NCBI GenBank assembly: GCA_031292735.1
Contig: JARLGP010000070.1
Span: forward strand, 1 to 17,129
Source of the DNA: Holophaga sp.
GTDB taxonomy: Bacteria > Acidobacteriota > Holophagae > Holophagales > Holophagaceae
Direction of reading: 5' to 3'
DNA: 17,129 nt
A program made the translations under genes and the position numbers. The notes beneath the pieces were generated by a model that was given only the letters and a program-made list of their open reading frames with translations, was not told the DNA's origin and did not search any database. How positions within the stretch are numbered: the first letter of the stretch is position 1; each line of letters opens with the position of its first letter. This document shows positions 3,618 to 17,129 of this stretch, in pieces.

Positions 3618-5657
3618 ATGGACCCACAGCAGGTTAGCCCTCTGCCTGGCCTGGCTGGGGGCGAGCTGTCGCGGCCGGACCGGGGTTGGCGCGCGCTGGC
3701 CCTGGTGGCGCTGATCGCCGTCGGCATGGCCGGGAACTATTTCAAGTTTTCAGTCTTCTTCAACATCGATTTCATCTTCGGCAGCATCGCGGCCATGCTG
3801 GCGCTGCAGTGGTTCGGACTCGGCTGGGGGGTGGCGGCCGCGGGGCTGATCAGCCTCCCGCTGTGGCTCATCTGGGGCCACCCTTACGCCATCCCGGTGA
3901 TGACCGCGGAGGTGGCGGCGGTGGGCTGGCTGCGGGGCCGGCGCGGGATCGGCTTCATCCAGGCCGACGCGCTCTACTGGGTGCTGGCCGGCATGCCGCT
4001 GGTCTATATCCTTTACCGCGGGGTGATGGGGGTTCCCCTGGACAGCACCCTGTTCATCATGACCAAGGAGACGGTGAACGGCCTGGCCAACGTCCTGGTG
4101 GCCCGCCTGGCCTTCACCCTGGTGCCGCGGAATGCCCGCCAGGCGCCCATCTGGTTCCGGGAGGCCATCTACAACCTGCTGGCCCTGTTCGTGCTGGGCC
4201 CTACCGTGATCCTGCTGGCGGTGAACAGCCGGAGCGACTTCCACAGCGCCGACCGCAGGGTCCGCGACGCGCTGCTGCGCGAAAGCCGGCAGCAGACGCT
4301 GGCGGTGCGGAAGGGGGCGGCGAACCTGGAGGCCATCCGCGGCGAGCTGGCCCAGAACCTGGGCGGGGGCGGCACCCGCTTCACCCTGCTGGACCGGAAC
4401 CAGCGGGTGCTCCTGAGCAACCGGGACGATCAGGCGGAGCTGGCGCCCTTCCAGCGGGGGTCGGGGACCCTGGAACCGCTGGAACCCGGCATCAGCCGGT
4501 GGCTGCCGGTGGTGCCGCGCCGCTCTCCCTTCATCAACCGCTGGGGCGAATCGTCCTATGTGGCGGAAACAGCCATCGGCGAGCCGGCCGGCTGGAGCCT
4601 GGTGCTGGAACAGCCGGTGGCGCCCTTCCAGAAGGCCCTGTTCGTCAACTATTCCCGGGATCTGGCCGTGCTGTTCGCGCTGCTGATGGCCTCCCTGGCG
4701 GTGGCCGAGGTCGTGAGCCGCCGGTTCGCCCGCTCCTTCGTGCAACTGGGAGAGCTCACCAGCAACCTGCCGCTCAAGTTGGCCGCCAGCGGCCCCCCGC
4801 TGCTGTGGCCGGAAACCGGCATCCAGGAATCGAACCAGCTGATCGCCAATTTCCGGATCATGGCCGAGTCGCTGTCCCGGCAGTTCGCCGTGGTGCGCCA
4901 GGCCAACACCTCGCTGGAGCAGCGGGTGCAGGAAAGAACCCAGGAGCTGCAGCAGAAGCACGCGGAGATGGAACGGTTCACCTACATGGTCTCCCATGAC
5001 CTGAAGAGCCCCCTGGTGACCATCCGCACCTTCCTGGACTACCTGGAGCAGGACCTGCGCCAGGACAAGGCGGAGCGCGCGGCCAAGGACATGACCTTCA
5101 TCCGCGATGCCGCCGGCAAGATGGCCCACCTGCTGGAGGACCTCCTGGTGGTTTCCCGGGTGGGCCGGGTGGTGAACCCCTCGACCCGGGTGACCCTGGC
5201 CAGCCTGGTGCAGGAGGCCTTGAAATCCGTGGGTGGGGCCATCGCCTCCCGGGCCGTGGAGATCACCCTGGAAGGCCCGCCGGTGGAGCTGTTCGGCGAC
5301 CATCCGCGGCTGGAGGAGCTTTGGCAGAACCTCATCGAGAACGCGGTCAAATACATGGGCGACCAGCCGGCGCCCCGGATCGCCCTGGGCGCCCAGGTGA
5401 CGCCGCTTGAAACCCGGTTCTACGTGCGGGACAACGGCATGGGCATCGATCCGCGGTTCCACGGCAAGGTGTTCGGCCTGTTCGAACAACTGGACCCCGC
5501 CACTGAAGGCACTGGTCTGGGGCTGGCCCTGGTCAAGCGCATCGTCGAGCACTACGAAGGCCGCGTCTGGCTGGAATCCCAAGGGTCAGGGCAGGGCACC
5601 TGCTTCTGGTTCACGCTGCCCGGGGCGCTGCACGCCCTGAACCAAGGAGTCTCGTGA
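3618..5657 (+). CDS. Membrane sensor histidine kinase
   Basis: This 679-residue inner-membrane kinase begins with a multi-helix membrane region (about 26-170) containing a NYFKFSVFFNIDFIFGS stretch and WGHPYAIPV, which I cannot assign to a named family. A further helix (about 183-203), a likely periplasmic segment (about 204-345, Cache-like by position only) and a last helix (346-366) follow. A linker and coiled coil lead to HisKA with the phospho-acceptor H460 in VSHDLKSP. The ATPase domain has the N-box NLIENAVKY (N575), DNGMGID (605-611) and GTGLGLA (631-637). All catalytic boxes are intact. There is no receiver. The stop codon overlaps the ATG of the next gene, which begins with a receiver domain, so that protein is the natural phosphate acceptor. 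The start is supported by GGAG six bases upstream. The ligand is unknown. Confidence 0.88.
   Translation: MDPQQVSPLPGLAGGELSRPDRGWRALALVALIAVGMAGNYFKFSVFFNIDFIFGSIAAMLALQWFGLGWGVAAAGLISLPLWLIWGHPYAIPVMTAEVAAVGWLRGRRGIGFIQADALYWVLAGMPLVYILYRGVMGVPLDSTLFIMTKETVNGLANVLVARLAFTLVPRNARQAPIWFREAIYNLLALFVLGPTVILLAVNSRSDFHSADRRVRDALLRESRQQTLAVRKGAANLEAIRGELAQNLGGGGTRFTLLDRNQRVLLSNRDDQAELAPFQRGSGTLEPLEPGISRWLPVVPRRSPFINRWGESSYVAETAIGEPAGWSLVLEQPVAPFQKALFVNYSRDLAVLFALLMASLAVAEVVSRRFARSFVQLGELTSNLPLKLAASGPPLLWPETGIQESNQLIANFRIMAESLSRQFAVVRQANTSLEQRVQERTQELQQKHAEMERFTYMVSHDLKSPLVTIRTFLDYLEQDLRQDKAERAAKDMTFIRDAAGKMAHLLEDLLVVSRVGRVVNPSTRVTLASLVQEALKSVGGAIASRAVEITLEGPPVELFGDHPRLEELWQNLIENAVKYMGDQPAPRIALGAQVTPLETRFYVRDNGMGIDPRFHGKVFGLFEQLDPATEGTGLGLALVKRIVEHYEGRVWLESQGSGQGTCFWFTLPGALHALNQGVS
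5644..5649 (+). promoter_or_regulatory. Ribosome binding site fixing the start at 5657
   Basis: AAGGAG lies inside the last codons of the preceding kinase, seven bases before ATG at 5657. A GTG three bases earlier (5654) is also in frame, but its distance to this site is shorter and the ATG gives the normal receiver beginning MATRILVVED. The TGA of the upstream gene (5655-5657) shares its A with this ATG, which indicates translational coupling. Confidence 0.75.
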
Positions 5658-7558
5658 TGGCCACCCGCATCCTGGTCGTCGAAGACGAATCGGCCCATGC
5701 CGAGGCGATCCTTCGTTCGCTTGAAACCCTGCCCGGCATGGAATTCCGGGTGATGGGCACCCTGCGGGAATTCCAGGACCAGGCGGTGGCCTGGGCCCCG
5801 GACATCGCCCTGGTGGACCTCAATCTGCCCGATGGCCGGGCCACCGAGATCCTGGCCGACCCGGCCGAGACCCGGCACTTCCCGGTGATCGTCATGACCA
5901 GTTTCGGCACCGAGCGGGTGGCGGTGGAGGCGCTGAAGGCCGGGGCGCTGGACTACCTGGTCAAGTCGCCGGAGACCTTCAAGGAGCTGCCCCGGACCCT
6001 GGAACGGCTGCTGCGGGAATGGCAGTTCTACCGCGAGCGCAAACAGGCGGAGGACGCCCTGCGTGAGGCCGAGCAGTTCAGCGACCTGGTGCTCAGCAGC
6101 GCCCAGGAAGGGATCATCGTCTACGGCCCGGACCTGCACTACCGGGTGTGGAACGCCCACATGGAACAGCTCACCGGCATGTCCGCCGGCACCGTGATCG
6201 GCCGGCATCCCCTGGACCTGTTCCCGTTCGTCCGGGTGTCCGGGCTCATGGACTGCCTGGAGGAGGTGCTGGCCGGGGCGGCCCGCCGGGCCTTGGACAT
6301 GCCCTTCTTCCTCCAGTCCACCGGCAGGACCGGCTGGTCGCACCACGTCATTTCCCCTTTCCGCAACCTCAAGGGCGAAACCATCGGGGTGATGGCCATG
6401 GTGGCCGACATCACCGAAAGCAAGCTGGCCGAGGTGGCCCTGCGGGAGAGCGAGCAGCGCTACCGGAACCAGTTCAACCTGGCCAGCGACGGGATCTGCA
6501 GCGCCAACCTGGACTACGAGGCCATCGAATACAACGAGGCCTTCGCCCGGATGCACGGCTACCGGCCGGAGGAGGTGCGCCAGCTGTCCCTGCGCCAGCT
6601 GGAACGGCCGGAATGCCATCCGCAGATCCCCGAACGGATCCGGCGGATCCTGGCCGGAACGGCGTTGACCTTCGAGACCGAGCACCTGCACAAGGACGGC
6701 CATGCCATCCCGGTGGAGGTCACCGCCAGCCTGGTGGCGGCCGGCATCAAGCCGACCATCCTCTGCTTCTATCGCGACATCACCGAGCGCCGGGCCATGC
6801 GCGGGGTGCTGGAGCAGCGGGTGCAGGAGCGCACCGCCCAGCTGGAGGCCGCCAACCGGGAACTGCAGGCCTTCAGCTATTCCGTGTCCCACGACCTGCG
6901 CGCGCCGCTGCGGGGCATCGACGGCTTCAGCCAGATCCTGGAGGAGGACTACCAGGACAGCCTGGACGAAGTGGGCCGGAACTACCTGCACCGGATCCGG
7001 CACGGGGTCCTGCGCATGGGGCTGCTGATCGACGATCTGCTCAAGCTGTCCCAGATCCATCGGCAGGAGCTGAACCAGCAGGACCTGGACCTGTCCTGCC
7101 TGGCCGGCAAGGTGGTGGCCGATCTGGAACAGGCCAACCCGGAACGGCGGGTGGCCTGTGTCATCCAGCCGGCCATGCGGGTGGAGGGCGATGCCCGGCT
7201 GATCCGGGTGATGCTGGACAACCTGCTGGGCAACGCCTGGAAATTCACGGCCAGGCAGCCCGAGCCCCGGATCGAGGTGGGCGAGCAGGTGCCGGCCGGC
7301 GCGGAACGGGTCTTCTTCATCCGGGACAACGGCGCAGGGTTCGATATGACCTACCAGGACAAGCTGTTCAAGGCTTTCCAGCGGCTGCACTCGGCCACCG
7401 AGTTCGACGGCACCGGCATCGGCCTGGCCATCGTCCAGCGGATCATCCACCGGCACGGCGGACGGGTATGGGCCGAATCCGAGCTGGGCAGGGGAGCCAC
7501 CTTCTTCTTCACCCTTCCCGGAAGAGGAGCCGTCCGTGCGCCTGCGGAGATCCCTTGA
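5657..7558 (+). CDS. Receiver-PAS-PAS-histidine kinase
   Basis: This is a 633-residue soluble signalling protein with no membrane helix. The N-terminal receiver (about 3-120) has the acidic pair E9/D10, phospho-acceptor D54 in LVDLNLPDG, T81 and K103. Two PAS domains follow (about 140-252 and 262-376), each ending in the DITE motif typical of PAS C-terminal edges. A coiled coil (380-405) leads to HisKA with H412 in VSHDLRAPLRG. The ATPase domain has N526 in DNLLGNAWKF, DNGAGFD at 557-563 and GTGIGLA at 585-591. The FSYSVSHDLRAPL form resembles kinases of the cyanobacterial-phytochrome type. It is coupled to the upstream membrane kinase by a one-base overlap and probably receives phosphate from it, so that a receiver controls a second kinase. 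The PAS ligand is not deducible. Confidence 0.88.
   Translation: MATRILVVEDESAHAEAILRSLETLPGMEFRVMGTLREFQDQAVAWAPDIALVDLNLPDGRATEILADPAETRHFPVIVMTSFGTERVAVEALKAGALDYLVKSPETFKELPRTLERLLREWQFYRERKQAEDALREAEQFSDLVLSSAQEGIIVYGPDLHYRVWNAHMEQLTGMSAGTVIGRHPLDLFPFVRVSGLMDCLEEVLAGAARRALDMPFFLQSTGRTGWSHHVISPFRNLKGETIGVMAMVADITESKLAEVALRESEQRYRNQFNLASDGICSANLDYEAIEYNEAFARMHGYRPEEVRQLSLRQLERPECHPQIPERIRRILAGTALTFETEHLHKDGHAIPVEVTASLVAAGIKPTILCFYRDITERRAMRGVLEQRVQERTAQLEAANRELQAFSYSVSHDLRAPLRGIDGFSQILEEDYQDSLDEVGRNYLHRIRHGVLRMGLLIDDLLKLSQIHRQELNQQDLDLSCLAGKVVADLEQANPERRVACVIQPAMRVEGDARLIRVMLDNLLGNAWKFTARQPEPRIEVGEQVPAGAERVFFIRDNGAGFDMTYQDKLFKAFQRLHSATEFDGTGIGLAIVQRIIHRHGGRVWAESELGRGATFFFTLPGRGAVRAPAEIP
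7524..7529 (+). promoter_or_regulatory. Ribosome binding site for the GTG start at 7536
   Basis: GAGGAG lies six bases before a GTG codon at 7536, inside the 3' end of the preceding kinase gene. It supports the GTG as the start although the two genes then overlap by 23 bases. From this GTG the protein opens with Arg residues followed by a hydrophobic stretch, a normal signal-anchor beginning. The ATG at 7562 is in another frame. Confidence 0.7.
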
Positions 7559-10169
7559 AGCATGCGCCCGCCTGGTCCAGGCGGTCCTGGCGTTGGGTCT
7601 GAGCCTGGCCCTGGCGGCCGGGGTCGGGGACAAGCGGGTGCTGATCCTCACCTCCTATGGCGCGGGGCGGCCTGGGGTGGAAGCCCTCCTGGGCGGGTTC
7701 CGCACCACCCTGGGCCAGGCCGGCATGAGCGTGGAGCAGGTATTCACCGAGAACCTCGACCTGGAGCGCTCCAGGGACGAGGGCTTCCGCCGGAGCCTGG
7801 CGCAGACGCTCCGGCTGAAGTACGGCCGGCGTCCCGTTGACCTGGTGTACGTGGTGGAGCAGCCTGCCCTGGATTTCACCCTCCAGCACCTGCCGGACGT
7901 GGTCCGCGGGGCGCCGATCCTGGCCGTGCGGGCGGTCCTGCCCGGATCGGCCAGGGGCCCGGGGCCCTTCGTGCGCCAGCTGATCACCTACGATCTGGAC
8001 GGCACCCTGCGGCTGGCGATGAACCTGTTCCCGCGCACCCGCCGGGTGCTGTTCGTGGCCGGCAGCGCCCCCAGCGACCGGGAACTCCTGGCCGGGGCGG
8101 CGCGCGCCATGGCGCCCTGGCCGGGGGTCGCGCGCGAGGACACCACCGGGCTCACCGTCGACCAGGTGGAGGCCTGGATCCGGAACCCCGGTCCCGGCAC
8201 GGTGATCATGGTGCTGCCCTTCAACCGGGATTCCGCGGGCCGGTCCGTGGTCCAGATGGAGATGGCCTTCCTGGTGGCGGCCAGGGCCGGAGCGCCGGTG
8301 TTCACCTTGTGGGACAACGTCATCGGCCAGGGCGCCGTGGGCGGAAGCGTCACCAATTTCGAGGATGTGGGCCGGCAGGCGGCGGAGTTCTCGCTGGGGC
8401 TGCTGGACGGGCGCACCGTCCTGGCCGGCCCGGTGACCGATCTCCCGGCCAGGTCGTTCATCCGGTTCGACTGGCGGCAGCTCCAGCGCTGGCACGGCGA
8501 CCCGGCCGGGCTTCCGGCGGCGAGCCGGTTCGTCAACCGGCCCGCCACCCTGTGGCAGCAATACCGGCGGACCGTCATCGTGACCGGGGTGTTCCTGCTG
8601 GGGCAAAGCCTCCTCATCGCCCTGCTGCTGGTGCAGCGGCGGCTCCGGGCCCTGGCCCAGCAGCGGCTCCGGCAAAGCGACGAGGCGCTGCGCCGCAGCC
8701 GGTTCATGTTGATGCGCACCGAGGCCCTTTCCCACATCGGCGGCTGGCAGTGGGAGGCGGCCACCGACACCGTGGTCTGGTCGGACGAGATGTACCGGAT
8801 CGTCCAGCGCGACCCCGCCCAGGGCGTTCCAGCCATCGCCGAACAGCGCGCCATCTACCATCCGGACGACATGGCCCGGCTGGCGCCCCTGATCGACCAG
8901 GCCATGGCCCATGGCGTCCCCTACGAGATCGAGCTGCGCGCCCTCCGGCCCGGCGGCGAAGTCCGCATCTGCCTGGCCCGGGGCTATCCGGAGCTGGGCC
9001 CCGGCGGCCAGGTGACCGGCTTGTTCGGATCGCTCCAGGACATCACCGAGCCCAAGCAGACCGGCGAGCACGAGCGCAACCTGGAAGCCCAGCTGCAGCA
9101 GGCCCAGAAGATGGAAAGCCTGGGCCTGCTGGTGGCCGGGGTGGCCCACAACCTCAACAACGTCCTGGCCATCGTCATGGGCACCGCCTCCCTGCGCGAA
9201 CAGGTTGCCACCGATCCCCAGGACCGGGAGTCCTACCGGAACATCGGCCAGGTCTGCCTGCGCGGCCGGGATGTGGTGAAGTCCCTGATCCACTTCGCCG
9301 AGCCCACCCTCGCGGTGCAGGCGCCGTTCGAGCTGCACGGGCTGATCCAGGAGGTATGCAGCCTGCTGGACAGCACCACCCGGAACAGCATCCACATTGT
9401 CACCCGGTTCGCCGAGGGGCCGCTGTGGCTGCAGGGGGATGCCGGCAGCATCAACCACGCCCTGGTGAACCTCTGCGTCAATTCCCTGGACGCCATGCCC
9501 GGCGGCGGCACCCTCACCCTGAGCACGGCAGTCCTGGGCGAGGGCCAGGTGGAGGTCTCGGTGCAGGATGACGGCGCGGGGATCCCCCCGGAGGTGCTGG
9601 ACCATGTCATGGAGCCCTTCTTCACCACCAAGCCGGTGGGCAAAGGCACCGGCCTGGGCCTGAGCATGACCTACGGTGTGGTCAAGGCCCACGGGGGCAC
9701 CATCCGCATCGGCAGCGAGCCCGGCCGGGGCACCACCGTGACCCTCCGCTTCCCCCGGATCCCCGCCCCGGCCCCCAGCGCGGACGTCCCCGCCGCCGCG
9801 CCGTCCCTGAAGGCCCTCACGGTCATCCTGGTGGACGACGACGAGGACGTGCGCTTCCTGATGACCCGGATGCTCAAGCGGGCCGGGGTGCGCCAGGTGA
9901 AGACCTTCGCCGCGGGCGATGCCGCCCTGGACTACCTGCGCACCGGCGAGCTGCCCGACCTGGTGATCCTGGACCAGAACATGCCGGGCCTGAACGGCAG
10001 CCAGACCCTGGAACGGATCCGGGCCCGGTTCCCGCACCTGCCCGTGCTGATCTCCTCGGGCCAGCCGGACATCGAAGCCTGGCCCTGCTTCCGGCTGCCC
10101 GGAGTCGGGGTGATTTCCAAGCCCTTCACCCTGGAGGAGATCCAGGCGAAGCTGGGGCAGTTTGGCTAG
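7536..10169 (+). CDS. Hybrid histidine kinase with periplasmic binding-protein-like sensor
   Basis: This 877-residue protein has an N-terminal signal or anchor helix (about 10-28). A periplasmic domain (about 33-340) begins VLILTSYGAGRPG and resembles the ABC substrate-binding-like sensors found in some kinases. A membrane helix (about 346-366) and a PAS-like domain (about 390-505) follow. The kinase core has H538 in GVAHNLNNVL, N649 in LVNLCVNSLDAMP, DDGAGIP at 678-684 and GTGLGLS at 704-710. The C-terminal receiver (about 760-877) has D767-D769, phospho-acceptor D813 in ILDQNMPG, S840 and K862. The residue after the catalytic His is Asn, where most relatives have Asp or Glu. The gene overlaps the previous one by 23 bases and is the third kinase of the cluster. 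A small molecule is the likely ligand, but it cannot be named. Confidence 0.88.
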   Translation: MRLRRSLEACARLVQAVLALGLSLALAAGVGDKRVLILTSYGAGRPGVEALLGGFRTTLGQAGMSVEQVFTENLDLERSRDEGFRRSLAQTLRLKYGRRPVDLVYVVEQPALDFTLQHLPDVVRGAPILAVRAVLPGSARGPGPFVRQLITYDLDGTLRLAMNLFPRTRRVLFVAGSAPSDRELLAGAARAMAPWPGVAREDTTGLTVDQVEAWIRNPGPGTVIMVLPFNRDSAGRSVVQMEMAFLVAARAGAPVFTLWDNVIGQGAVGGSVTNFEDVGRQAAEFSLGLLDGRTVLAGPVTDLPARSFIRFDWRQLQRWHGDPAGLPAASRFVNRPATLWQQYRRTVIVTGVFLLGQSLLIALLLVQRRLRALAQQRLRQSDEALRRSRFMLMRTEALSHIGGWQWEAATDTVVWSDEMYRIVQRDPAQGVPAIAEQRAIYHPDDMARLAPLIDQAMAHGVPYEIELRALRPGGEVRICLARGYPELGPGGQVTGLFGSLQDITEPKQTGEHERNLEAQLQQAQKMESLGLLVAGVAHNLNNVLAIVMGTASLREQVATDPQDRESYRNIGQVCLRGRDVVKSLIHFAEPTLAVQAPFELHGLIQEVCSLLDSTTRNSIHIVTRFAEGPLWLQGDAGSINHALVNLCVNSLDAMPGGGTLTLSTAVLGEGQVEVSVQDDGAGIPPEVLDHVMEPFFTTKPVGKGTGLGLSMTYGVVKAHGGTIRIGSEPGRGTTVTLRFPRIPAPAPSADVPAAAPSLKALTVILVDDDEDVRFLMTRMLKRAGVRQVKTFAAGDAALDYLRTGELPDLVILDQNMPGLNGSQTLERIRARFPHLPVLISSGQPDIEAWPCFRLPGVGVISKPFTLEEIQAKLGQFG

Positions 10170-12707: not shown

Positions 12708-12807
12708 CACCCGGAAAACTTGAGATCAACAAATGAACCCCCCGGTGGTAATCTCCATGCACCGAAAACGGATCCAGGGCCCAACCGCGATTCTGCAAAG
12801 TGACGTT

Positions 12808-15800
12808 ATGAAACGTTCCCGAATACCGGTCACGGGCATCTCCTGCGCCAATTGCTGCCGGTTCATAGAGCGCAAGGTGGCCGCCCTGGCCGGGGTGAGC
12901 GAGGCCCGCGTGGATTTCGCCAGCGAGCAGCTCACCGTCCAGTTCGACCCGGACCAGACCGGGGAACCCGCCATCGTCGCCCAGATCCGGCTGGCGGGCT
13001 ACGGGGTGGCCGCGGGCAAGCTGGAACTGGCGGTCCTGGGGGTGCGCGGCCAGGCCGACGCGGACCGGCTGGGCCAGGCGCTGCGGGCCCAGGACGGCGT
13101 GCTGGGCGCCGGCGTGGACCCCGGCAGCGGCTGCGCCGGCATCGAGTTCCTGTCCGGCCGCACCGGGGTGGCCCGGCTGGCCGAGGTGATCCGCCAGGCG
13201 GGCTTCCGGCTGGCCCAGCCCCCCGAGTCCGGCGGCTTCGAGGACGGCGAGGCCCTGTCCAGGGAGGCCGGGCTGCGCGGCCAGAAGCGCCTCCTGGTGC
13301 TGGGCGCCGTCCTCACCGTGCCGCTGGTGGTGTTCAGCATGGCCCGGGATTTCGGCCTGGCCGGCCTGGGCAGCGCCGCCCGCGACCGGTGGGCCATGCT
13401 GGTGCCGGCCACCATCGTCCAGATCGCCCTGGGCTGGCGCTACTACGTGCGGGCCTGGAACAGCCTGCGCGCCGGCGCCGCCAACATGGACGTGCTGATC
13501 GTGCTGGGCGCCTCCGCCGCCTACGGTTCCAGCCTGGCGGTGACCCTGGGCCTGGCGGCCGGACCCAACGTCTACTTCGAAAGCGCGGCCGGGATCCTCA
13601 CCCTCATCAGCCTGGGCAAGTACCTGGAAGCCCGGGCCAAGGGCCGGGCCTCGGCCGCCCTGAAGGCCCTCATGGGGCTGGGCGCCCGCACCGCCTGCGT
13701 GGTGCGGGACGGCGCGGAGCAGCAGATCGACATCGGCCGGGTCGGGGTGGGCGACCTGGTGGTGGTGCGCCCCGGCGAGAAGGTGCCGGTGGACGGCATC
13801 ATCGCCTCCGGACGCTCGACGTTCGACGAGTCGATGCTCACCGGGGAGTCCATGCCGGTGGGCAAGGGCCCCGGCGACGAGGTGACCGGCGCCACCCTCA
13901 ACCAGGAGGGGCTGGTGCGGTTCGAGGCCACCCGGGTGGGCGCCGACACCACCCTGGCCCGGATCGTCCAGCTGGTGCGGGAGGCCCAGGGCAGCAAGGC
14001 CCCCATCGAGAAGCTCACCGACCAGATCGGCCGCTATTTCGTGCCGGCCATCCTGGTGATCGCCCTGGCCACCTTCTGCGTCTGGTTCGGGGTGGCCCAC
14101 GCGCCCTGGTCCAGGGCCATGATCAACGCCGTGGCGGTGCTGGTCATCGCCTGCCCCTGCGCCATCGGGCTGGCCACTCCCACCGCCATCCTGGTGGGCA
14201 GCGCCAAGGGGGCCGGGCACGGCATCCTGTTCCGGCACAGCGAGGCCCTGCAGCGGGCCGGCCGGGTGAACGTGGTGGTGCTGGACAAGACCGGCACCCT
14301 CACCCGCGGCCAGCCCCAGGTGACCGACCTCCTGCCGGCCCCCGGCCTGGACCCGGACGCCCTGCTCAGCCTGGCGGCCGGCGCCGAGCGCGGCTCCGAG
14401 CACCCCCTGGGCCGCGCCATCGTCCTGGCGGCCCGGGACCGGGGTCTCGCCCTGGCCGAGCCCGAACAGTTCACCGCGGTGAGCGGCTTCGGGGTCCGGG
14501 CCCTGGTGGCAGGCCGGCGGGTGCTGGTGGGCAACCCCCGGATGCTGCGCAACGACGGCATCGCCCTGGACGGCTGGGAGGACCAGCTGGGGCCGCTGTA
14601 CGGCGCCGGCAAGACCGCCATGCTGGTGGCGGTGGCCGACGGCGGGGAGCCGGCCCGGGTGGCCGGGATCATCGCGGTGGCCGACACCCTCAAGCCCGGC
14701 TCCGCCGAGGCGGTGGCCGAGCTGCGCCGGCTGGGCCTGGAGGTGGTGATGATCACCGGCGACAACCGGCGCGCCGCCGAGTGGATCGCCGCCCAGGCCG
14801 GCATCGACCGGGTGCTGGCCGAACTGCTGCCCGGGGAGAAGGCCGAGGCGGTGCGCCAGCTGCAGGCGGCCAACCACGGCTCCGGCGTGCCGGCGCCCGT
14901 CGTGGCCATGGTGGGCGACGGCATCAACGACGCCCCGGCCCTGGCCCAGGCCGACGTGGGCATCGCCATCGGCACCGGCACCGACGTGGCCATGGCCGCC
15001 GCCGGCATCACCCTGGTGGGCGGCGATCTGCGCGCGGTGGGCCGGGCCGTCGCGCTGTCCCGCGGGATCATGCAGACCATCACCGAGAACCTGGTGTGGG
15101 CCCTGTTCTACAACCTCGCCCTGGTGCCGGTGGCGGCCTACGGGCTGCTCAACCCGATGTTCGCCGCCGGCGCCATGGGCTTCAGCTCCCTGTTCGTGGT
15201 GAGCAACAGCCTTCGCCTGCGCGGCTACCGGTTCCGCGGCCTGGAGCCGCCCCGCTCCCGGCGCCGCCAGGTGGGCGGCATGGCCCTGCTCATCCTGGTC
15301 CCGGCCTGCTGCCTGGGCGTGCTGCTGGTGGTGCCGTTCCTGCTCATGTCCGGCGGGATGGAGATCCAGGGGGCCCGGGACACCGGCATGAGCCCCCTGC
15401 TGATGATGGTGATGGCCCTGGCCAACGGCTCCATCGCCGTGTCGTACTTCTCCATCCCGGTGTTCCTGGTGGCCTTCACCAGCAAGCGCAAGGACCTGCC
15501 GTTCTCCTGGGTGATCGTCCTGTTCGGCGGCTTCATCATGGCCTGCGGCAGCACCCACCTGATGCACATCATCGGCCTGTGGTGGCGGGTGGACTGGTGG
15601 CAGGCCGGGTTCGACAGCCTGTGCGGCCTCATTTCCGCCGCCACCGCCGTGGTGCTCTGGCCGACCCTGCCCAAACTCCTGGCCATCCCCACCCCCACCG
15701 CGCTCAGCCGGGTGAACCGGCAGCTTGAAGGGGAGAAGCAGCGCCTGGAACGCACCCAGGAAGAGCTGCGGATGGCCTACGCCGGGGTGGAACTCCGGGT

Positions 15801-17129
15801 GAGCGAGCGCACCGGGGAGCTGGCCCTGGCGAACCGCGCCCTGCAGGCCGAAGTCCATGAACGCCAGCGGGTGGAGGCGGAACTCCGGAGCAATCGGGAC
15901 CACCTGGAGGAGATGGTCGCCACCCGGACCATGGAGCTGGAGGCGGCGAAGCGTTCGGCGGAAGCGGCCAGCGAGGCCAAGAGCGCCTTCCTGGCCAACA
16001 TGAGCCACGAGCTGCGCACCCCCATGAACGCCATTGTCGGCTTTTCGGAAATCCTCGAGCACCAGATCAGCGACCCCCGGCAGTCCAGCTACCTGGCCCG
16101 GATCCGCACCAGCGGCGCGGTGCTGCTGCAGCTGATCAACGACATCCTCGACCTGGCCAAGATCGAGGCCGGCAAGATGGAGCTGAACTTCCAGCCCGCC
16201 TCGCTGCGCGTCCTGGCCCAGGAGATCCTCCAGATGTTCAGCTACAAGCTGGCGGAAAAGAGCCTGGAGCTCACCTGCGAGATCGCCCCCGAGCTGCCCG
16301 AGGCCCTGCTGGTGGACGAGATCCGGCTGCGCCAGGTGCTGGTCAACCTCATGGGCAACGCGGTGAAGTTCACCCCCAGCGGCAGCGTCACCGTGCGCAT
16401 CTGGCCATCGTACCCGCGGGGCGCCTCGCTCAGCCTGCCGGACATCCACATGGCGGTGACCGACACCGGGATCGGCATCCCCCCGGAGGTCCAGGACCGG
16501 ATCTTCGAGCCGTTCGAGCAGCAGCGGGAGGCCCAGATGACGGGCCACGCGGGGACCGGGCTGGGCCTGAGCATCACCCGCAAGCTGGTGACGGCCATGA
16601 ACGGCAACCTTTCGGTGACCAGCGCCGTGGGCGCGGGAAGCACCTTCACGGTGGTGCTGCGGGAAGTGGAAGTGGCGGCCGGGCCGGTGGAATCGGCCGC
16701 CCCGGAAGGCGAGAAGTTCGAGTTCGCCGCCGTGCGGTTCGCCAAGGCCACGGTGCTGATCGTGGACGACATCGACTTCAACCGGGACCTGATCCGGCTG
16801 TACTACGACGGCTACGGCCTGGAGCTGCTGGACGCGGTGAACGGCGAGCAGGCCATCGAGATGGCCCGGCGCTTCACTCCGGACCTGATCCTCCTGGACA
16901 TGCGCATGCCTGTGTTGAACGGCTACGAAACCGCCGTGATCCTGAAGAACGACCCGCAGTTGCGCGCCATTCCGGTGGTGGCGGTCACCGCCTCCGTGCT
17001 GGAGGACGACATCGCCCGGCTGGGCAGCAACTGCGACCGCTACCTGCGCAAACCGCTCGGCCGGGCCGAGCTGATCCGCTGCACCATGGAGTTCCTGCCC
17101 CATTCGGTGGCGGGGTCGCCGCCGCCCGC
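12808..17129 (+). CDS. Cu(I) P1B-ATPase fused to an ETR1-type receptor hybrid histidine kinase (3' end outside window)
   Basis: One open frame of 1440 whole codons with no stop. Metal-binding domain 1-70 has SCANCC (C13, C16, C17); a second fold (72-139) lacks its cysteines. The CopA-type ATPase follows: TGES (345-348), CPC (449-451), DKTGT (phosphorylated D493), HP (532-533), TGDN (650-653), GDGIND (703-708), YN (768-769) and MGFSS (790-794), the Cu(I) class signature. ATPases of this type end near 805; here an Arg-rich linker and an extra helix (824-848) follow. Residues about 868-956 are an ETR1-like three-helix domain with YFSIP (880-884), C913 and H917. A coiled coil (967-1050), HisKA H1067, N1184, DTGIGI (1219-1224), GTGLGL (1249-1254) and a receiver (D1364, K1415) complete it. 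It may pump Cu(I) outward and sense ethylene or copper. An in-frame ATG at 12757 is an alternative start. Confidence 0.9.

Follow-up and report, generated by a model that had tools for sequence, protein, structure and literature searches.

Here we describe a gene of Holophaga sp. (Acidobacteriota, Holophagaceae) in which a copper-transporting ATPase continues, within one reading frame, into the membrane domain of an ethylene receptor and then into a histidine kinase. The gene runs off the end of contig JARLGP010000070.1 (assembly GCA_031292735.1); the whole stretch analysed, 17,129 nucleotides, is referred to as the window. The product is a single chain in which a complete P1B-1 Cu(I) ATPase is followed by one more transmembrane helix, an ETR1_N domain, a histidine kinase and, last, a receiver. 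Numbering residues from the ATG at 12808, Pfam gives the order HMA (7-65), E1-E2 ATPase (293-469), Hydrolase (488-716), ETR1_N (865-960), HisKA (1057-1122), HATPase_c (1170-1286) and receiver (1316-1423). A first-pass annotation, made from the letters of the window alone, had read a stop-free frame leading from an ATPase through an ETR1-like domain into HisKA, HATPase and receiver domains, and the open reading frame, Pfam and the curated model TIGR01511 all bear this out.

From the ATG at 12808 the frame is open through the last base and meets no stop codon in the window; the gene is therefore cut by the contig end. A further in-frame ATG lies upstream at 12733, and the database entry of the protein begins at 12808. 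Some 70 residues are probably missing at the C-terminus, since the nearest listed relative, 93% identical across the searched part, has 1512 residues. The features of the gene are as follows.

12808..17129, forward strand: fusion gene, stop-free frame to the contig end, 1440 residues readable
12826..13002, forward strand: HMA cytosolic Cu-binding domain with CxxC (SCANC), residues 7-65 (PF00403)
13684..14955, forward strand: P1B-1 ATPase actuator, catalytic and ATP-binding parts (PF00122, 293-469; PF00702, 488-716; TIGR01511, 209-805)
14152..14160, forward strand: CPC Cu(I)-transport motif, residues 449-451, invariant in a 41-row alignment
15109..15114, forward strand: Tyr-Asn of transmembrane helix (TM) 7, residues 768-769, invariant in the same alignment
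15175..15189, forward strand: MxxSS of TM8, residues 790-794, with M790, S793 and S794 invariant in the same alignment
15277..15348, forward strand: extra transmembrane helix at the pump-receptor junction, residues 824-847 (hydrophobic segment; low-confidence model helix 818-846)
15400..15687, forward strand: ETR1_N three-helix domain, residues 865-960 (PF25487, E 1.6e-28)
15403..15414, forward strand: Met cluster M866, M867 and M869 at the start of ETR1 TM1 (alignment and LMMxM pattern)
15424..15426, forward strand: N873, the ETR1 Asp25 position (alignment of fused and unfused domains)
15544..15567, forward strand: C913 and H917, equivalent to ETR1 Cys65 and His69, with the additional H920 (alignment and pattern)
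15613..15615, forward strand: D936, the ETR1 Lys91 position (alignment of fused and unfused domains)
15694..15924, forward strand: long helix leading to the kinase (signalling coiled coil), residues 963-1039, predicted from the model
15976..16665, forward strand: histidine kinase core, HisKA 1057-1122 and HATPase_c 1170-1286 (Pfam; H, N, G1, F and G2 boxes)
16753..17076, forward strand: receiver domain, residues 1316-1423 (Pfam; phospho-acceptor Asp and conserved Lys)

The fusion recurs across bacterial phyla

A search with residues 790-1010 against 5.8 billion proteins returned 206 matches at E 1e-3 or better, and the best 120 of these, the window's own included, are the listed fused proteins counted below. 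ATPase sequence precedes ETR1_N in all 120: DKTGT is present in 116 and the remaining four, which are fragments, hold GDGxND and/or the TM8 motif. The E1-E2 ATPase label is absent in seven of the 120; these seven and four others start inside the ATPase and are taken as fragments. Among the short proteins used below for comparison, three matches are 69-70% identical and the next is at 48%, a gap that divides the fused from the unfused class. Of the three, P0121 and P0123 start inside the ATPase, while P0122 starts in the linker and, being 470 residues on a 2.1 kb contig, could equally be a split gene or a fragment.

Scanning GTDB species genomes by pattern, we found 58 loci, 41 of them closer (56-78% identity) and 17 distant (36-49%). 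An ATPase lies in the same frame in 39 of the 41 closer loci, the other two (L025, L040) being cut at the contig start, and in none of the 17 distant ones (L045 is cut). P1B-ATPase and ETR1_N in one chain, a pairing that the first-pass annotation had thought worth mapping in databases, is thus found in every listed protein and in nearly all closer loci. Nor is it confined to one assembly, as that annotation had allowed, for the listed proteins and the GTDB loci span many phyla. The closer loci come from Bacteroidota, Chlorobiota, Acidobacteriota (Holophagaceae, Geothrix, Thermoanaerobaculia), Verrucomicrobiota, Desulfuromonadales/Geobacter, Syntrophobacteraceae, Spirochaetaceae, a Clostridiaceae bin and Omnitrophota. 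Of 296 evenly sampled Bacteroidota genomes, 18 have ETR1_N; two of these, one being the sample centre, have it in frames of more than 1500 residues, and the other 16 in frames of 390-721 residues. With so few long frames in this sample and so many phyla among the loci, the fusion is rare per species yet spread widely. A plasmid collection yielded 19 records matching the ETR1 part, every one below 60% identity, and a phage collection yielded no match to that part. One further candidate, L086, with a CopA in a 1309-residue frame, was rejected because the frame stops after TM8 and its surplus length lies upstream.

Trees were built for each half. Among 87 ETR1_N domains (106 columns; some branches are long and the bootstrap had not fully converged), the 53 fused rows fall on one side of a branch with support 100/100; L039, L040, L045 and L061 were left out, and L025 was scored as fused despite its cut-off ATPase. 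The ETR1 row joins the unfused domains and has a long branch. Of the 51 ATPases in a second tree, made by a quick method, the 32 fused ones form one group (Shimodaira-Hasegawa-like approximate likelihood ratio test, SH-aLRT, 100) apart from 19 other ATPases of the genomes that carry the fusion. Excluded were 13 fused loci that are near repeats, L061, L063 and anything below 600 residues; the 19 others comprise 18 of the 19 unfused carrier frames above the TIGR01511 cut-off (all except G012:C56) and L095, which is below it. As fused ETR1_N domains and fused ATPases each form one group, the trees are consistent with one fusion event. The mixing of phyla within the fused groups suggests transfer.

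These data also bear on whether the chain is an assembly artefact or a recent chance fusion of two genes. All 41 closer loci are titled as metagenome-assembled, which leaves room for such an error. The identical junction and linker are nevertheless found in many independent assemblies across phyla, on contigs of up to megabases and with invariant residues, and a stop or frameshift hidden at 15200-15400 is discounted because the junction recurs in relatives from separate contigs, among them L010 at 5.26 Mb. Given this recurrence and the single tree group formed by each half, we reject the artefact and give it next to no credence.

The ATPase half and its junction with the receptor

The ATPase half scores 557.5 bits with TIGR01511, a copper ATPase model with a cut-off of 397, and matches the solved structures 3j09 and 3rfu with 571.7 and 506.1 bits. 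The CPC, YN and MxxSS transport motifs are all in the window protein, together with DKTGT and GDGxND (here GDGIND). On this model and these motifs the half is assigned to the P1B-1 Cu(I) ATPases and is a predicted pump. Most relatives keep the motifs too: in the 107 listed proteins with CxxTH beyond residue 800, we counted DKTGT in 107, GDGxND in 107, ACPC in 106, YN in 105, GAMxFSS in 106, TGE in 96 and S[EN]HP in 103.

The C-terminus of CopA is cytosolic, while the N-terminus of ETR1 is outside. A hydrophobic segment (824-847 here) links ATPase and ETR1_N in all 120 listed proteins, and the mean number of Lys and Arg around it falls from 5.6 before to 1.2 after (n=109). With this extra helix and its charge bias, ETR1_N can therefore adopt its usual orientation. 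An AlphaFold model of residues 1-1040 has helices at 783-806, 818-846, 863-893, 900-925, 930-958 and 963-1039. Conservation is concentrated on one face of each ETR1 helix, being matched in only 32, 131 and 70 of 5000 shuffles for TM1, TM2 and TM3 (41 rows). The order of the residues would put the Met cluster, H920 and D936 close to the periplasmic ends, with C913/H917 further in, which outlines a putative path for Cu(I).

A rebuilt copper site in the receptor domain

The receptor domain matches PF25487 at 99.2 bits against a cut-off of 27; compared with solved structures, the ETR1 segment found no convincing relative (best E 0.063). It differs from ethylene receptors in position, being internal (865-960, after the ATPase) rather than N-terminal. 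Residues were tallied in 117 aligned proteins of the 120 (P0046, P0048 and P0087 missed the pattern), and pattern counts span all 120. A gap in the MAFFT alignment put ETR1 His69 opposite H920, and His69 was assigned to H917 by the shared CxxTH motif. The seven ETR1 residues compared are those that we take to serve ethylene.

C913 and H917, the equivalents of the Cu(I) ligands, are invariant (117/117 aligned, 120/120 by pattern), and so are Tyr880 and Ile910 (ETR1 Tyr32 and Ile62; 117/117); Pro884 (Pro36) is kept in 116 and Ile883 (Ile35) in 112 of 117. The Asp25 position, by contrast, is Asn (N873) and the position of its salt-bridge partner Lys91 is Asp (D936) in all 120 fused proteins. Further potential ligands are as constant: M847, M866, M867, M869 and His920 are invariant in 117/117, M861 occurs in 114 and Cys at 939 in 97 of them, and the LMMxM pattern is in 120/120.

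Unfused domains differ at the same positions. A set of 117 short ones (120 listed of 176 matches, without P0121-P0123; many are near copies) has Asp at position 25 throughout and Lys at position 91 in 115, with one Glu and one Arg. Where the fused proteins have M866, M867 and M869, it has mostly Ile or Val, Trp (in 111) and His (in 114), respectively. Among 34 unfused loci, which are more varied, position 25 is Asp in 30, Asn in three (L053, L068, L096) and cut in one (L045), and position 91 is Lys in 30, Arg in two, Leu in one and Gln in one. Neither His at 920 nor Asp at 936 occurs in any of the 117 short unfused domains or the 34 unfused loci. Because three of the 34 also carry Asn, Asn at position 25 alone is not peculiar to the fusions; the combination of residues is. 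Two of these three are unusual in other ways. L053, a cyanobacterial domain, has Tyr replacing His69. L096, a 765-residue frame in the fusion carrier G007, is a second ETR1_N of that genome and is degenerate, with Gln at position 91 and Asn and Ser in place of the Cys and His ligands.

These substitutions can be read against published work. According to a 2026 review (PMC13012798), the Asp partners a conserved Lys, and ETR1 in which it is changed to Asn still functions, with an affinity for ethylene that is ~100-fold lower. Two further papers give D35, C75, H79 and K98 for the Azospirillum receptor AzoEtr1 (PMC11819568) and state that ETR1 needs seven residues for ethylene (PMC6682694). Another review has an asparagine position the histidine (PMC12722077), where other sources give Asp; we take this as a probable slip. 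Since Cys and His are invariant while the Asp25/Lys91 pair is replaced, Cu(I) binding by the fused ETR1_N is likely kept and its high-affinity ethylene binding is in doubt. A plain high-affinity ethylene receptor is rejected, as both residues are replaced in 120/120.

The first-pass annotation had proposed a covalent pump-receptor pair, acting either as a self-metallating ethylene receptor or as a copper pump read out by its kinase. Pfam and the alignments uphold the pair, and a readout of copper load by the kinase fits it best; the ethylene receptor is weakened by the loss of Asp25 and Lys91. In its broader form, in which the pump loads Cu(I), ethylene or another gas such as CO binds and the kinase reports, we regard the gas receptor as unlikely. 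It would account for the retained equivalents of Cys65, His69, Tyr32, Ile62, Pro36 and Ile35 and for outputs whose variety of PAS and kinase domains resembles a general sensor. The functional Asp-to-Asn ETR1, the review's asparagine and an interaction of RAN1 with ETR1 in plants (PMC13012798 and PMC12586476) are also in its favour. Yet the two residues lost from every fused protein are mostly kept in unfused domains, the gained Met and His ligands indicate metal handling, and in 16 of the 17 carrier genomes nothing outside the fusion matches ETR1_N (G007 has the one described above), which leaves no independent sign of ethylene signalling. A copper sensor is favoured because soft Cu(I) ligands have been gained (three Met, one His and Cys939) and the pair that serves ethylene affinity has been replaced.

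Kinase outputs and neighbouring genes

The motifs of a hybrid histidine kinase are intact in the window protein, namely the H, N, G1, F and G2 boxes and the receiver Asp and Lys. Outputs, scanned in six fusion proteins, vary: kinases with or without receivers, PAS domains and an Hpt domain were found. In L013 and L036 the chain has no kinase and the next gene encodes a PAS-kinase. In L024 and L030 the fusion frames reach ~2300 and ~2450 residues, with long stretches separating ETR1_N and kinase. Simple gene calling left 30 loci assessable, those in which a gene is called behind the fusion. In 14 of them one of the next two genes downstream, on the same strand, encodes a single-domain response regulator, a count made without a control. 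At several of these the next gene resembles the receiver-PAS-kinase of L002.

Two explanations would give signalling a smaller part. In the first, the kinase and ETR1_N serve chiefly to control the pump: Cu(I) or the phosphorylation state would govern transport through direct contact, with little outward signalling. The union of both parts in one chain in every assessable case suits this idea, which we hold to be improbable in view of the intact kinase and receiver motifs, the long helix to the kinase, the response regulators downstream in 14/30 loci, and L013 and L036, where a kinase in the next gene suits outward signalling. The second, more improbable still, makes ETR1_N a release or acceptor site for exported Cu(I) on the periplasmic side with signalling secondary; it draws on the Met-rich entrance and the Cu(I) ligands and leaves the recurrent coupling to kinases or PAS domains unexplained.

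Nine chosen neighbour genes were also scanned. DsbD_2 genes lie upstream of the fusion in L003, L004 (opposite strand) and L039 (with HMA). The one in L003 (6181-7203), just upstream of the fusion gene, encodes a protein with a cupredoxin-like tail (25.8 bits against a cut-off of 27), and this protein may be a partner in copper handling. In the window itself, positions 3618-10169 hold three consecutive sensor kinase genes with overlapping ends (a kinase, a receiver-PAS-kinase and a PAS-HATPase-receiver protein), preceded by NAD synthase and an MFS transporter and followed by glycogen phosphorylase on the other strand.

Copper genes of the carrier genomes

Each of the 17 carrier genomes has one fusion. 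In five (G003, G006, G009, G013, G017) the fusion is the only frame above the Cu-ATPase cut-off. Separate copper regulators above cut-off are scarce in the carriers: CsoR in 2/17, CueR in 0/17 and CusS-type kinases in 3/17.

A proposed copper exporter with an attached sensor

We consider it fairly probable that the protein exports Cu(I) in the manner of CopA and carries its own copper-sensing kinase, which would report copper load or flux through ETR1_N. A more specific version, which we put forward tentatively, is that the Cu(I) pumped by the polypeptide is delivered to its own remodelled ethylene-receptor fold, through which the kinase reads pump flux; the P-type ATPase would then also be a receptor, and the fusion a copper-sensing branch of the ethylene-receptor family. 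The architecture, its distribution, the grouping of each half, the invariant residues and their contrast with unfused domains are observed, whereas the Cu(I) hand-over, the sensed signal and the direction of the kinase response are inferred. The ATPase would take up cytosolic Cu(I) and deliver it on the periplasmic side. The added transmembrane helix would turn the chain such that the mouth of the membrane-embedded ETR1_N bundle faces the side on which Cu(I) exits. The Met cluster 866/867/869, with His920 and Asp936 near the mouth, could catch Cu(I) and pass it to Cys913/His917. Occupancy of this pair, set by copper load or pump flux, may alter the bundle, a change that the long helix would relay to the kinase so as to shift its activity. 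Phosphate would pass to the receiver of the same chain or to the product of a neighbouring gene, a response regulator or kinase.

Several points weigh against this interpretation. The AlphaFold model has an overall predicted local distance difference test score (pLDDT) of 70.7 and a predicted template modelling score (pTM) of 0.52, and in its ETR1 part, at pLDDT ~40-55, the geometry is unusable; for this reason the Cu(I) hand-over rests on topology and conservation. The HMA CxxC, as matched by the pattern used, is present in only 75 of the 107 relatives. Twelve of the 17 carriers have another frame above the Cu-ATPase cut-off, and the tally of downstream response regulators, as noted, is uncontrolled. 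The scarcity of copper regulators is weak support for built-in sensing, because matches below cut-off are common in the carriers (CueR-like in 15/17, CusS-like in 17/17), which are drafts, and because 14 control genomes, themselves unmatched to the carriers, pass the cut-off in six cases for CsoR, one for CueR and one for CusS.

Relation to known systems

The pump half resembles in full the P1B-1 Cu(I) ATPases (CopA; solved as 3j09, 7r0g and 3rfu), with HMA, CPC, DKTGT, GDGIND, TM7 YN and TM8 MxxSS. To our knowledge, P1B-1 ATPases end after TM8, whereas the fusion adds a helix, ETR1_N and a kinase there, and the 32 fused ATPases group apart from the 19 others. With ethylene receptors (plant ETR1; bacterial SynEtr1 and AzoEtr1) the protein shares ETR1_N, the Cys and His ligands of Cu(I) and a kinase that follows; it differs in that the domain is internal behind a pump, with Asp25 changed to Asn, Lys91 to Asp, and a Met cluster and His920 gained. 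Transporter-kinase fusions are known as a kind from CbrA and Amt-kinase proteins, which likewise join a transporter and a histidine kinase in one chain. Those proteins carry secondary transporters or channels; here a metal-site receptor domain links a P-type ATPase to the kinase. A further parallel is the Arabidopsis pair RAN1/HMA7 and ETR1, a Cu-ATPase paired with an ETR1-type Cu(I) domain (PMC13012798 and PMC12586476), although the plants use two proteins where the fusion has one chain; our trees were made without RAN1.

The first-pass annotation knew of no described protein with this architecture, and its claim holds within the open-licence full texts of PubMed Central (PMC), where we found no description of a P1B-ATPase-ETR1_N-kinase chain among the matches listed (subscription papers and preprints lay outside this scope). 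In databases the fusion proteins are already entered, for example as 'heavy metal translocating P-type ATPase' and as 'Cu+-exporting ATPase'.

If the proposed reading is true, a primary active transporter would signal what it carries by way of a receptor kinase covalently joined to it, and the ethylene-receptor fold would gain a second, copper-only use. With pump and Cu(I)-site domain joined, the fusion is a natural system for asking how Cu(I) reaches the membrane site of ETR1, and its natural variants of Asp25 and Lys91 offer a test of what makes the ETR1 site an ethylene site.

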